A DNA stretch of 64,000 nt from Oscillospiraceae bacterium (GTDB lineage Bacteria; Bacillota; Clostridia; Oscillospirales; Ruminococcaceae): positions 1 through 64,000 of the forward strand of contig JAFUOZ010000007.1 in the NCBI GenBank assembly GCA_017481565.1. The letters are read 5' to 3'. A program made the position numbers and the translations under genes. The notes beneath the pieces were generated by a model. The model searched no databases, was not told the origin of the DNA, and was given only the letters and a program-made list of their open reading frames with translations. Positions 12,459 through 18,321 of this stretch are shown here, piece after piece (within the stretch, counting starts at the first letter, position 1; every line of letters starts with the position of its first letter).

Positions 12459-12590
12459 ATATCTTTCATTTTATATATTGAAACGGCTCGAATGTTATTG
12501 GGTCATGCAAACATAAGCACCACACAGATATATGTTCATTCCTCGTTTGAGAAAATGCAAGCTGCCGCCGACAGACTGAAATTCGATTAA
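12459..12590 (+). pseudogene. Tyrosine recombinase (phage integrase) C-terminal remnant
   Basis: An open frame of 43 codons between stops ends ARMLLGHANISTTQIYVHSS and then FEKMQAAADRLKFD. This is the classic box II of XerC/D-like and phage integrases: the LLGH histidine, the TTQIY nucleophile tyrosine and the trailing helix. No start codon, N-terminal domain or box I arginine lies upstream, so it is a fragment of a lost integrase gene. It lies about 100 bases from the 3' end of tRNA-Leu, where such integrases usually insert. Confidence 0.8.
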
Positions 12591-12686: not shown

Positions 12687-12773
12687 TGGTGCGGATAATG
12701 TGACTTGAACACACACGGTATTGCTACCACTAGAACCTGAATCTAGCGCGTCTGCCGATTCCGCCATATCCGC
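12687..12773 (-). tRNA. tRNA-Leu (anticodon CAG)
   Basis: The acceptor stem GCGGATA/TATCCGC is closed by an encoded ACCA end. The anticodon stem CTAGA/TCTAG encloses the loop TTCAGGT, which gives anticodon CAG. A class II variable arm (GGTA-GCAA-TACC) and a T arm with TTCAAGT are present. The total is 87 bases including CCA. Its own consensus promoter lies at 12810-12838 and a terminator follows. Confidence 0.96.
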
Positions 12774-12838: not shown

Positions 12839-12872
12839 GGGATATTCTTCAAAAAAGCGAAACTTTAACTAT

Positions 12873-13022
12873 TTATTCACAATAATCAATAATTAATTCA
12901 TCATCTTCCGATTCCTGAGCTGCACGCTTTTTGGTAATACTTTTTCCGATACATCTTGCGATAATTGTTAATACAGCTAATACTGCCGCCGCTGCTGAAA
13001 TAATAAACGCTGTTTTTTTCAT
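12873..13022 (-). CDS. Small single-pass membrane peptide, 49 aa
   Basis: The peptide MKKTAFIISAAAAVLAVL continues into a basic loop (GKSITKKRAAQ) and an acidic tail ending in ESEDDELIIDYCE. It has one membrane helix with K-K at the front and a charged C-terminus. The start at 13022 has AAAGGA upstream. It lies 16 bases after the 39-aa peptide gene and shares its layout of one helix plus an acid-rich tail. The function is not known. Candidates are a membrane regulator, or a substrate of the radical-SAM-like protein encoded upstream. Confidence 0.6.
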   Translation of the reverse strand: MKKTAFIISAAAAVLAVLTIIARCIGKSITKKRAAQESEDDELIIDYCE

Positions 13023-13038
13023 AGATATGACCGTCCTT

Positions 13039-13158
13039 TCAGTTAATAATGCTGTCATCGTCATGGGAAGGATCTGAATCAACAGCTACGCCTACATTAC
13101 TGTAATAAATCGAGGCTGCAACGCTTACTGCTGCACCGATAATAATAATTGCTGTCAT
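13039..13158 (-). CDS. Small membrane peptide, 39 aa
   Basis: The peptide starts MTAIIIIGAAVSVAASIYY, one hydrophobic helix, then a polar tail with DSDPSHDDDSIIN. AAGGAG lies 11 bases before the ATG at 13158. It is followed 16 bases later by the 49-aa peptide gene, and a 57-bp element shared with the radical-SAM-like gene lies about 92 bases upstream. Too short for a family call. The good ribosome site and shared promoter element make it a likely real gene. Confidence 0.6.
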   Translation of the reverse strand: MTAIIIIGAAVSVAASIYYSNVGVAVDSDPSHDDDSIIN

Positions 13159-13250
13159 ATAATTCACGCTCCTTCTTTTTATTTGTTCAGGCTTTATCAT
13201 ACATCAGTCTAAATTGCATCATTTCTTTTACTGTCTACATTATAACTCCA

Positions 13251-13307
13251 TATTGTTTGAATTTTGCTAAAGTTATATTAGAATCTGATTAGAATTTTTT
13301 ACATCAG
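13251..13307 (-). repeat. Duplicated 57-bp upstream element, copy A
   Basis: 49 of 57 bases match copy B at 14438-14494 by direct alignment. On the minus strand it carries two TTCTAAT blocks with an 11-base period, overlapping a TATAAC -10-like hexamer. It lies upstream of the two small membrane peptide genes. Confidence 0.75.
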
Positions 13308-13393
13308 AATAAAAATAAATTCGCAAAAACCGTCAGTCATTCAATACCTCCATCTATTATTTGATATCAATATGACAACTGTTATACACCGTA

Positions 13394-14419
13394 TTACGTT
13401 TTGCCGTATTTTTCACACAACATTTCATATATTTCATTTCTGGATAAACTATGTTTAACTGCAAGCTGCCTATGTTTATAATACCTTTTAATATTTTTCA
13501 GGAAAGCAGTTATCTTTTCACAGGCGTATATTCCTGCTTTTGAATTTGTTTTATCATAATATTCATCGGGATCATCCGAGGGAATAAAAACATAAAGTTC
13601 ATCAATATCCTTTTTAATACTGTCAGATAAAAGCTTTTCATCACATACTCCGTTTGTAATCCCTATTACTTTGATATCAGATTTATTTTTTATATAATTC
13701 AATAAACTTCCGCAATCAGATGTAATCGGATCATAACCAACTCCAACAAACAAATACTCTATTCCCGTTATATCTGTTAAATCAAAAGCTTTAGTATACA
13801 TAAAACCATAACCACGAAATGGATAAGCTTCTTTATTTTTCTTACAGTCAGGGCATTTATTGATACAGTTATTCTTCATTTTCAATAAAAGTATATTTTT
13901 GTATTTTTCATGGATATAAAAATAATCATCAGGCTTACCCTCTAAGGTATATTCGTCAGTGTGATGTTCCTTATAGTTTTCCCATGATTTTTTATAAACA
14001 TATGTCTTGTATACTTTTCCATATTTATAAAAAGCGTTTTCTTTCAGTAATCTGACACACTTATTATACCAGCTTATAAAAAGTTCATCTGAATAATAAG
14101 GACTCAGATAACTATTCCAATAAATGCGTCCTTTAGGTGGTATACCTTTTGTACCGCAAAAAAATTCTATTAAAGGCAGTTCATGTAATTCTGTTGAACT
14201 CTTAAAGCAAGTCTTATCCAATTTGAAATCAGTGTTCCACAAATAATACCAACCGCTCATATTATTTTTCTCAGTTTCTTCTGTTTCAACAAGTGTCACC
14301 ATCTCATCTGCCTGTTTTTCGGATAGTATCTTGATTTTACCTTTCATCTTAATGTTTAATATTTTTATAAATTCAGCTACATCTTCTGTGGTCATGCTAA
14401 ATTCAACTTGCCTTCCCAT
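13394..14419 (-). CDS. Radical-SAM-like protein with unknown N-terminal domain
   Basis: A 341-residue soluble protein. Residues 1-~170 are unrecognised and rich in tyrosine and lysine. Around residues 183-190 is CINKCPDC, a CX3CX2C motif of the radical SAM 4Fe-4S type, preceded by a strand (NILLLKMKNN). After it come ITGIEYLFVGVGYDP, where canonical enzymes have a GGEP-like motif, then IKVIGITNG and a strand IDELYVFIPSDDP. This order matches a short (NrdG/Fer4_12-like) radical SAM core, with the GGE motif degraded. The start at 14419 has GGAGG nine bases upstream. Its promoter element is duplicated upstream of the two small peptides that follow. The assignment rests on motifs only. Confidence 0.55.
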   Translation of the reverse strand: MGRQVEFSMTTEDVAEFIKILNIKMKGKIKILSEKQADEMVTLVETEETEKNNMSGWYYLWNTDFKLDKTCFKSSTELHELPLIEFFCGTKGIPPKGRIYWNSYLSPYYSDELFISWYNKCVRLLKENAFYKYGKVYKTYVYKKSWENYKEHHTDEYTLEGKPDDYFYIHEKYKNILLLKMKNNCINKCPDCKKNKEAYPFRGYGFMYTKAFDLTDITGIEYLFVGVGYDPITSDCGSLLNYIKNKSDIKVIGITNGVCDEKLLSDSIKKDIDELYVFIPSDDPDEYYDKTNSKAGIYACEKITAFLKNIKRYYKHRQLAVKHSLSRNEIYEMLCEKYGKT

Positions 14420-14437: not shown

Positions 14438-14494
14438 TATTGTTTGAATTTTGCTATGGCTATATCAGAAACTGAACAGAATTTTTTATATCAG
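14438..14494 (-). repeat. Duplicated 57-bp upstream element, copy B
   Basis: Copy of the 13251-13307 element, lying directly before the radical-SAM-like gene and overlapping the end of the gene at 14486. On the minus strand it has TTCTGTT and TTCTGAT blocks with an 11-base period next to TATAGC. Confidence 0.75.
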
Positions 14495-14872
14495 CATTGT
14501 ATAATAATCAAATTCAAACAAGCATAGCGACAACAGGGGATATACTGCATAAATAAATACTCCGACAATAAACAGATATCCCATTTCTCGTTTCACCGTA
14601 AAATCATCGCCTGCACTCTTTGCTCCGATAAAGCCCCCTAACCAGCCTCCGAATACAGACAGTATCATACATAAAACTGCGTTTCCTCTGCCTGCGCTTT
14701 TATAAGCAAAATAATTCATAAGAATAAATAACGGTATAGAAATAACTCCCAGCATAAAACCAAATAAAAGAGCTATATAAAACATCCACGCAAGATCTCT
14801 TATAATAAAAAGAAGTACAACGCCTATAAGCATTATCGATATTACTATTACATAATCAGAATTTTTCTTCAT
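14486..14872 (-). CDS. Small multi-pass membrane protein, possibly DUF1294-like
   Basis: A 129-residue protein with four hydrophobic helices. The segment LMNYFAYKSAGRGNAVL, followed by a glycine-rich helix FGGWLGGFIGAKSAG, loosely resembles DUF1294 membrane proteins, which have no known function. The start at 14872 is preferred over 14878 because AAAGGA is then 8 bases away. It begins 18 bases after the GNAT-RibD stop, so the two are co-transcribed, and it is followed by the radical-SAM-like gene. It could be a membrane partner of the small peptides, but nothing in the sequence proves this. Confidence 0.6.
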   Translation of the reverse strand: MKKNSDYVIVISIMLIGVVLLFIIRDLAWMFYIALLFGFMLGVISIPLFILMNYFAYKSAGRGNAVLCMILSVFGGWLGGFIGAKSAGDDFTVKREMGYLFIVGVFIYAVYPLLSLCLFEFDYYTMLI

Positions 14873-14890
14873 TGTCATTATCCTTTCTAA

Positions 14891-15823
14891 TTACTCATAC
14901 CTGAGCCATACTGCACCGTGCGCCATTACCTCTGCACTGCACAGCTGATATTCCCTCATTTCCGATTCTGCAAACAGCGGCTTATCATCAATTCCGCCCA
15001 CTATCGGAGCTGTGACTATACTCAGCATATCAACAACTCCCGCTCTCTGAAATGCACCGTTGATAATACTTCCGCCTTCAAGAAGCAGCTTTTTAATACC
15101 GAAAAGCTTGTACAGCTTATTAAGTGCAAGCTTTATATCAATATCCTCTTTACCTGCGAAAATATACGATACACCGATACTTTTATAATATGCAAGCATT
15201 TCCTTGGGTGCTTTTTCGGTCAGTACCTCAATTATATGACAATCATCATAACCCACATCTTCATCATGTATCCTGCTGTCAGTCCAGCCCACTTTTCCGC
15301 AGCGGTCAAAGGAAACCGCATAGTAATCATGCTTTTTTGCTATATAGTCCTCAAAGGGAATATCCGCTCCCGAAAATTCCGAAAGGTCGGGACTAAAGCC
15401 GTTTGTAAAGCTGCTTTCCATTGTGACTCTTCCGCAAGCAAAAGCATCTCCCTTAAGCTGACGGTTGATATCATAATATACCTCGCTTACCTGCATACCC
15501 TTTTCACCGAAAAGAAAATCTCCCGTGACCTTGCCGTCGATACTTGTTACCATGTGACATATCACAACAGGGCGAAGTCCGTTCTTTTCTACATATTTTC
15601 TTGCATAGGAACAGCTTGTTCTGATATTTCCCCCACGGAGATTTATCTGATTTATTGCACGTTTTACAAGCTGTGCCGCAACTCCCCTGCCCTGCATACT
15701 TTCATCAACAAAGGTATGGTTTATATCAAATACGCCTTTTTCGGTTTCGGGAAAATCAATTTCTCCTGCCTTTTTTTCATTTTCAATGCATATTATTTTT
15801 TCTGCTTCTGTTTTAAAAATCAT
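14891..15823 (-). CDS. GNAT_C acetyltransferase fused to RibD C-terminal-like reductase
   Basis: A two-domain protein. Residues 1-~82 are a minimal GNAT of the YjdJ/PF14542 type: GEIDFPETEKGVFDINHTFV, then QGRGVAAQLV, the acetyl-CoA loop, and CSYARKYVEKN. Residues ~85-310 are a dihydrofolate-reductase-like RibD_C domain: CHMVTSIDGKVTGDF, FACGRVTMES, and KLLLEGGSIINGAF with the GGxxxN NADPH-binding motif. Stand-alone versions of both are common; this fusion is not one I know. The start at 15823 has AAAGGA upstream. The RibD-like domain probably reduces a pyrimidine- or pterin-like substrate. What the acetyltransferase part acts on is unknown. Confidence 0.8.
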   Translation of the reverse strand: MIFKTEAEKIICIENEKKAGEIDFPETEKGVFDINHTFVDESMQGRGVAAQLVKRAINQINLRGGNIRTSCSYARKYVEKNGLRPVVICHMVTSIDGKVTGDFLFGEKGMQVSEVYYDINRQLKGDAFACGRVTMESSFTNGFSPDLSEFSGADIPFEDYIAKKHDYYAVSFDRCGKVGWTDSRIHDEDVGYDDCHIIEVLTEKAPKEMLAYYKSIGVSYIFAGKEDIDIKLALNKLYKLFGIKKLLLEGGSIINGAFQRAGVVDMLSIVTAPIVGGIDDKPLFAESEMREYQLCSAEVMAHGAVWLRYE

Positions 15824-16638: not shown

Positions 16639-18321
16639 TTACTGCTGAGTGCTCTTTTCAAGAGTACTATTCAGTTCATTGATAATATCAGAGATCTGAC
16701 TGATAGAATTATTGATAGTCTCGGAGCTGTCTGCAGTGATCTTAACATTTTCATCAAGAACGCTGAATGCCTTGATAGTTGCTTCAAGGATCTTTGTCAG
16801 CTGATCAACAGTTGCCTTATCCATTACAGGATTATTATTGCAGAATACAACTACATTCTTAAGCAGGTCGTTTACGACTGTTGCTCTTTCCTTGGTCTTT
16901 GAGTTGGACTCGTTGATAGTGGACATATTTGCTGTAATATCCTTGATATCGCCTGCAAGCTTATCGGAAAGTGCGATACATTCATTTGTGATCTTGGAAA
17001 TCCTTTCGTCACGGTCTTCAAGCACATGATTATTGGAAAGAAGAACTGACTTGGCATGAACGATACAGTTTTCCGGTGTATTCTGTCCTCTGAATATCGC
17101 TGTTGCCATCTGCTGACATGATGCATATCCGCAGGCACGGCAATCGTATGAGCGCTCCTCCTGAGTGAATTTGCCCATAGATTCAAATATAGGATCAAGA
17201 TCCTTTGCTGTGGGAATTACCGAAGGCTTTGCAGGCTTATAGCCTCTTATGAAGTTGGACATATCAAGCTCATCGTCAAACTTCTTGAAAAGATCATCAT
17301 TTCCCGAACGGAAAAGACCTTTTGATTTTGGCTTGTTTTTCAGCTCATTATTTATCTGACGGATATATGACATTGCTTCAAAGCCTGTCTGCTTCCTGCC
17401 TGTTGCGGGTCCTACATTACAGCCGTATTCGCAGGAAAGAACGTCAAATATCTGAGGACGCTTTGCAATATTCATATTGGCATACTGTTCAAGCTCACGG
17501 TAAACCTTCTGTACACCCTCGGAATTTACTATATTTACTGTAGGATCCTTCTGGAGAATACATTCTTTAAGTCCGCCCGGTGTGGAATAGATCGAGCCGT
17601 ACTGACCCTGACCGTATTCAAACTCATATTCAAATTCAAATGAATCGGTGGAGGGAATCCTGATATCGTTCTTCTCGAAGTATTCCATAAGCTTCTTGAA
17701 GGTCACATTATACTGGATAAGACCTGTTTCCTCGCACTCCATCTTCTTGGCGATACAAGGGGAAAAAAGTGCCATGGGATTTGGTCTCTTAAGATAATTC
17801 TTGATATATATCGCCATACAAGCTGCAGGACTGTGGATAGGAGACAGGCTCTGGAGAAGCTTGGGCTGATACATTTCTATGTAGTTTACAATAGCGGCAC
17901 AGGGCTGGCTTATAACATTATTCAGCTTATTGAATTCCATAGCCTTAAGATGTACCCAGCTGCAGATATCCGCACCGAAGGAAACGTCATATACAAGGCA
18001 GCCCTTTTTCTTGAACCAGTTGAGTATTTCCTTCCACTGTGTAGGATAAGCTACCTTTATAGAAGGTGTTGCAAGAACGATCATCTTTTCCTGAGAAACT
18101 CTTGACATGAATTCCTCGGTATCGTCAATATAATCACGGGCACCGTATTTACAGTTCTTTACACATTCACCGCAGGCGATACATTTTTCTGTATTTACAT
18201 TGGTGATGAATTTCCCGTTATCAAGCATTTTTGTAATGTTGGCTTCGGGAGCGGGACATCCTCTGACGCAGGCATTACAGCCGGTACATTTATCCGGCTT
18301 TACTATGATAAGATTGTTCAT
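16639..18321 (-). CDS. Sensory-type [FeFe]-hydrogenase-like protein with C-terminal coiled coil
   Basis: Probable H2 or redox sensor. Residues ~8-65 are a 2x[4Fe-4S] ferredoxin domain (CTGCNACVRGCPAPE; CIACGECVKNCKYG). The hydrogenase large-subunit-like domain has the H-cluster cysteines: ISQPCAAIV (loop 1, near 141), FSPCIAKKMECEE (loop 2, near 188) and LSCEYGCNVGP (loop 3, near 298). The catalytic proton-relay cysteine before the loop 1 ligand is proline, as expected for a slow sensory enzyme. A further 4Fe-4S motif, CRACGYASC with NC, lies near 385-415. The last ~115 residues are a coiled coil like that of chemoreceptor signalling domains. The gene follows a DivIVA-like gene by 56 bases, probably in one operon. 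Confidence 0.85.
   Translation of the reverse strand: MNNLIIVKPDKCTGCNACVRGCPAPEANITKMLDNGKFITNVNTEKCIACGECVKNCKYGARDYIDDTEEFMSRVSQEKMIVLATPSIKVAYPTQWKEILNWFKKKGCLVYDVSFGADICSWVHLKAMEFNKLNNVISQPCAAIVNYIEMYQPKLLQSLSPIHSPAACMAIYIKNYLKRPNPMALFSPCIAKKMECEETGLIQYNVTFKKLMEYFEKNDIRIPSTDSFEFEYEFEYGQGQYGSIYSTPGGLKECILQKDPTVNIVNSEGVQKVYRELEQYANMNIAKRPQIFDVLSCEYGCNVGPATGRKQTGFEAMSYIRQINNELKNKPKSKGLFRSGNDDLFKKFDDELDMSNFIRGYKPAKPSVIPTAKDLDPIFESMGKFTQEERSYDCRACGYASCQQMATAIFRGQNTPENCIVHAKSVLLSNNHVLEDRDERISKITNECIALSDKLAGDIKDITANMSTINESNSKTKERATVVNDLLKNVVVFCNNNPVMDKATVDQLTKILEATIKAFSVLDENVKITADSSETINNSISQISDIINELNSTLEKSTQQ

Follow-up and report, generated by a model that had tools for sequence, protein, structure and literature searches.

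The closest described relatives of the protein considered here belong to two radical SAM families: TIGR04100 (rSAM_pair_X), which consists of short proteins of Clostridia of ~200 aa, and TIGR04038, the TatD family nuclease-associated radical SAM proteins. No paper naming either family was found in the literature searched. A GGE-type SAM-binding motif is usual, but not universal, in the radical SAM superfamily. Radical-SAM bacteriocin clusters usually contain a precursor with a leader/GG sequence together with a nearby exporter or peptidase, and thuricin CD is such a bacteriocin with a two-peptide gene pair (PMC3132745). We analyzed a stretch of 64,000 nucleotides from an Oscillospiraceae bacterium (contig JAFUOZ010000007.1, positions 1 to 64,000; hereafter the window), in which an earlier note had described a candidate peptide-modification or signalling locus composed of a radical-SAM-like protein and two small membrane peptides. 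Features of this locus are summarized in Table 1.

Table 1. Features of the locus and its immediate flanks (positions are those of the window).
Feature	Position	Strand	Remarks
tRNA-Leu(CAG)	12687-12773	-	Flank, outside the system; adjoins the peptide genes; Rfam
49-aa single-helix membrane peptide	12873-13022	-	Acidic tail, two Cys; AAAGGA ribosome site
39-aa single-helix membrane peptide	13039-13158	-	Acidic tail; AAGGAG ribosome site before ATG
Element copy B, 60 nt, promoter-like	13251-13310	-	92 nt before the 39-aa gene
341-aa protein gene	13394-14419	-	ATG start; orphan N-terminal domain and divergent short radical-SAM core
Element copy A, 60 nt, promoter-like	14438-14497	-	18 nt before the 341-aa start codon; overlaps the 3' end of the 130-aa gene
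130-aa predicted membrane protein	14486-14878	-	No family, AT-rich

The 341-aa open reading frame is present, as is the CINKCPDC motif attributed to it in the earlier note (residues 185-192). Residues ~1-160 make up the N-terminal domain and residues ~161-341 the core, with no C-terminal extension past it. In NCBIfam, residues 213-332 matched TIGR04100 (E 4.9e-6, 26.3 bits) and residues 173-320 matched TIGR04038 (E 8.6e-4, 19.1 bits), both far below the respective curated cut-offs of 262 and 129.7 bits. Within the family and the order, the nearest proteins were TIGR04100/TIGR04038 members of ~200-225 aa with ~25% identity, and hhalign of the protein against 18 relatives gave 98% across 178 columns. 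The putative cluster cysteines, C185-X3-C189-X2-C192 (CX3CX2C), lie where the first strand ends and align with those of 13 relatives, and N183, G226, G228, T255-N256-G257 and D273 are also unchanged in the protein and these relatives. Among the 48 columns invariant in the 13 relatives, 15 are kept, roughly as the 25% identity predicts; they include the three cysteines, the GxG, the TNG and one aspartate.

The degradation of the GGE motif described in the earlier note was borne out: GVGYDP replaces GYGEP in the SAM-binding motif, with the glutamate lost and an aspartate one residue beyond its position. The S-x-S-x-N of beta-4 (the SISLN strand) and the R-x-R of the last strand are changed or absent, and ~9 residues are deleted after the cluster loop. 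An AlphaFold model built from an alignment with eight relatives had a mean pLDDT of 51, with the N-terminal part mostly below 60, and a single-sequence model was of no use. When this weak model was searched with Foldseek and VIA, the top rows, which cover residues 166-341, were radical SAM enzymes (MoaA, viperin, PFL-AE), in keeping with a partial TIM-barrel fold, and the best VIA row had Z 9.7 and rmsd 3.2 across 154 residues; since radical SAM relatives were in the model's alignment, this agreement in fold does not count as evidence separate from the sequence match. Taken together, these results, which answer the earlier suggestion of an HHpred/AlphaFold-type search, give good support to the view that the C-terminal half descends from radical SAM proteins. 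The radical-SAM-like claim thus stands for that half, by profiles and by a fold search with a weak model, with SAM-pocket residues degraded. Catalysis by the protein is unproven, because the usual SAM-pocket residues are altered or missing.

The first 160 residues had no relative in Pfam, NCBIfam or tblastn of plasmids and phages, and only short chance-like matches were found there and across 298 family and 398 phylum genomes. Membership of an uncharacterised family whose proteins would begin with M-x-R-Q-[IV]-x-[FY]-x-M was considered and rejected after a DNA-pattern scan of 131 genomes gave 14 matches, with no relative among those translated. TBP-like folds (for example YwmB, Z ~7), which VIA returned for the N-terminal part, fell below the stated noise level and were also set aside. 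No full-length homologue with both domains was found in the samples of relatives, family and order (~700 lineage genomes), in viral contigs, plasmids and phages, or in the species genomes, where the scan used near-exact peptide patterns and could pick up only close relatives. Defence-system and phage libraries yielded no match of note; PHROG 4933 (E 0.004) aligned with 50 residues in the radical SAM part and was set aside. An orthodox, intact TIGR04100 gene is present elsewhere in the same genome (G000:C119, L147:7395-8003) and in congeners. This copy sits between nadC-like and aldose-epimerase-like genes, and in its own genome and a congener it follows nadC-like and Sir2-like genes. This neighbourhood, with its Sir2-like, nadC-like and aldose-epimerase-like genes (names read by eye from the sequences), is conserved and may hint at an NAD-linked role for the unexplained TIGR04100 family.

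The shared upstream element that had been claimed exists, with one copy before each unit, but it measures 60 nt rather than 57 bp, and its copies are identical at 51 of 60 positions (85%). On the coding strand, the two copies read ATNCTGATNTAAAAAATTCTNNTCAGNTTCTNATATANCNNTAGCAAAATTCAAACAATA. They form the sole such pair in the assembly, which is 87% complete (E 4e-13; next match 27 nt, E 0.002), and the best other site in the window agrees at 29 of the 51 positions that the copies share. The 27-nt partial match, located elsewhere in the genome where a secreted-protein ORF begins, was judged to be chance. In viral contigs, an 18-nt block of the element had 4 exact matches, without similarity beyond the block. 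Both copies carry a dyad, TCAGNNNCTRA, with a TATA[A/G]C box immediately after it, in the same orientation and before the start codons. The element contains no -35 match, a sigma-70 scan found no promoter in either copy on the coding strand, folding of RNA transcribed from the element revealed nothing unusual, and Rfam found only the tRNA. In the simplest reading, the element looks like a DNA operator or an activator-dependent promoter. As the assembly has no further copy of the element, the proposed co-regulation of the 341-aa gene and the peptide pair is plausible.

The 49-aa gene begins 16 nt after the 39-aa gene on the same strand, and it falls outside the interval 13039-14419 to which the earlier note had confined the locus. 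An alternative in-frame ATG at 13200 would extend the 39-aa product to 53 aa, but is without a ribosome site. Among 2000 dinucleotide-preserving shuffles of positions 12841-13394, two successive ORFs of at least 35 aa with a ribosome site arose in 2, and two hydrophobic ones in 0. Because shuffles rarely give such ORF pairs, both tiny genes are probably real and very unlikely to be chance. Hydropathy (19-aa mean) peaks at 1.9 and 2.5 for the two peptides and both tails are acidic; these values, the ribosome sites and the shuffle test agree with the earlier description of two tiny genes with good ribosome sites, each encoding a hydrophobic helix with an acidic tail. Inspection by eye found no leader or GG cleavage site in either peptide, each being a transmembrane helix with an acidic tail. 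No convincing relative of either was found in 61 genomes, including three congeners, and the 49-aa peptide had no match in viral contigs.

The GC content of the 341-aa gene is 30%, compared to 40-42% in most neighbours, and the 130-aa gene may belong to the same AT-rich stretch. The tRNA-Leu has a strong promoter match of its own (12838-12810), and the gene order around it differs in congeners. Beside it lies a tyrosine-integrase-like C-terminal remnant, named by eye, at 12476-12590 on the plus strand (ORF 12492-12590, HANISTTQIYVHSSFEKM...), and congener G001 has a 296-aa integrase-like gene in the same place (L145:5152-6042); the tRNA-Leu therefore looks like an integration site. The lack of full-length relatives in the sets searched, the orphan peptides, the low GC content and the variable tRNA-Leu flanks fit a young locus that is species-specific or recently acquired. 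At 14891-15823 (minus strand), two domains, a short GNAT acetyltransferase and a RibD_C reductase, are fused in a single 310-aa protein, of which a congener has the GNAT-like part only. At 16639-18321 (minus strand), a 560-aa iron-hydrogenase-like protein with ferredoxin domains adjoins a DivIVA-like gene.

We tentatively favor the view that a divergent Fe-S/radical SAM enzyme and separate membrane microproteins share one regulon. The ORFs, the repeated element, the homology to radical SAM proteins and the cysteines are shown, and the promoter role, cluster binding, catalysis, substrate and role of the peptides are inferred. The orphan, AT-rich locus would be co-regulated, each transcription unit starting behind one copy of the element. 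The first unit would give rise to a two-domain protein, in which the uncharacterised N-terminal domain probably recruits substrate and the shortened radical-SAM core would hold a [4Fe-4S] cluster on CX3CX2C; most likely, this Fe-S/radical-SAM enzyme would act on some substrate that is neither of the two peptides, as part of the same response. The second unit would encode two single-pass membrane microproteins, acting separately in the membrane. We counted in favor of this view the TIGR04100/TIGR04038 matches, the hhalign result, the kept cysteines and TNG, the fold lists, the unique element and the shuffle test, and against it the 15 of 48 columns, the SAM-pocket changes, the deletion, the poor model and the failure to find a two-domain homologue. 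Next in probability, and in our judgement doubtful, is a pseudo-enzyme that lost SAM chemistry, retained the cluster or no more than the radical SAM fold, and now serves as a sensor or binding partner. Such a loss would be consistent with the shifted glutamate (GVGYDP), the missing S-x-S-x-N and R-x-R, the deletion past the cluster loop, the strong divergence and AT-rich composition, and the intact TIGR04100 copy retained in the genome; yet the TNG persists together with the three cluster cysteines, an aspartate lies one residue past the glutamate position, and true radical SAM enzymes also differ from one another in their SAM-pocket residues.

It is unlikely that the 341-aa protein takes part in RiPP-like or membrane-peptide maturation, modifying the 39- and/or 49-aa peptide (at Tyr or Cys, for example) to yield a signal or antimicrobial. 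The RiPP reading draws only on same-strand adjacency and the shared element; some radical-SAM bacteriocins, thuricin CD for one (PMC3132745), also have a two-peptide gene pair, and the tiny genes pass the shuffle test. Opposed to this are the leaderless, transmembrane character of the peptides, the degraded SAM pocket, and the fact that the nearest families are not known peptide maturases. In addition, Pfam and NCBIfam gave no RRE or SPASM/twitch match in the 341-aa protein, whose N-terminal fold was not reliably modelled. No ABC exporter occurs among the Pfam-annotated larger genes at 4.4-24 kb, and no protease lies beside the genes, the nearest peptidase being an S41 gene ~8 kb off. The RiPP claim was accordingly not upheld, and peptide modification is possible but unsupported. 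More improbable still, the large protein and the peptides may be unconnected, the second element being a local promoter duplicate, or the whole a decaying horizontally acquired fragment. The failure to find homologues in the sets searched, the composition of the large gene, the differing tRNA-Leu flanks and the integrase remnant adjoining the tRNA would suit such unrelated neighbours, but the ORFs are unbroken, and the dyad and TATA block are preserved in both copies, which face the same way and precede start codons. The weights given to these four readings are judgements and were not computed. We give slightly less credence again to a new radical-SAM peptide system, in which a new N-terminal domain recruits the substrate and leaderless membrane microproteins, encoded in a second unit under the same operator, are modified.

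If catalytic, as in the reading we favor, the 341-aa protein would reveal how far the usual SAM pocket can be reduced in a radical SAM enzyme, and would do so alongside an N-terminal domain without a counterpart in the sets searched. Were it to act on the peptides, radical SAM peptide chemistry would extend to leaderless membrane microproteins; as a pseudo-enzyme, it would represent an unusual re-use of the radical SAM fold, with an intact relative kept in the same genome.

Compared with thuricin CD and other sactipeptide clusters (PMC3132745), the locus likewise places a radical-SAM-type protein beside two small genes with good ribosome sites, but differs in that no SPASM or RRE, no leader/GG and no adjoining exporter or protease were found, and in that its core is only distantly related. 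It has the same short core as TIGR04038; one relative carries a TatD-like part at its N terminus, whereas the 341-aa protein has no TatD domain. Unlike TIGR04100, it adds a 160-aa N-terminal domain and is without the C-terminal R-x-R strand and the NxTNxCPCxCxFC, GYGEP and SISLNA motifs; in common with TIGR04100, it has the CX3CX2C, the GxG and TNG positions and the strand order, at ~25% identity over 170-180 aa.
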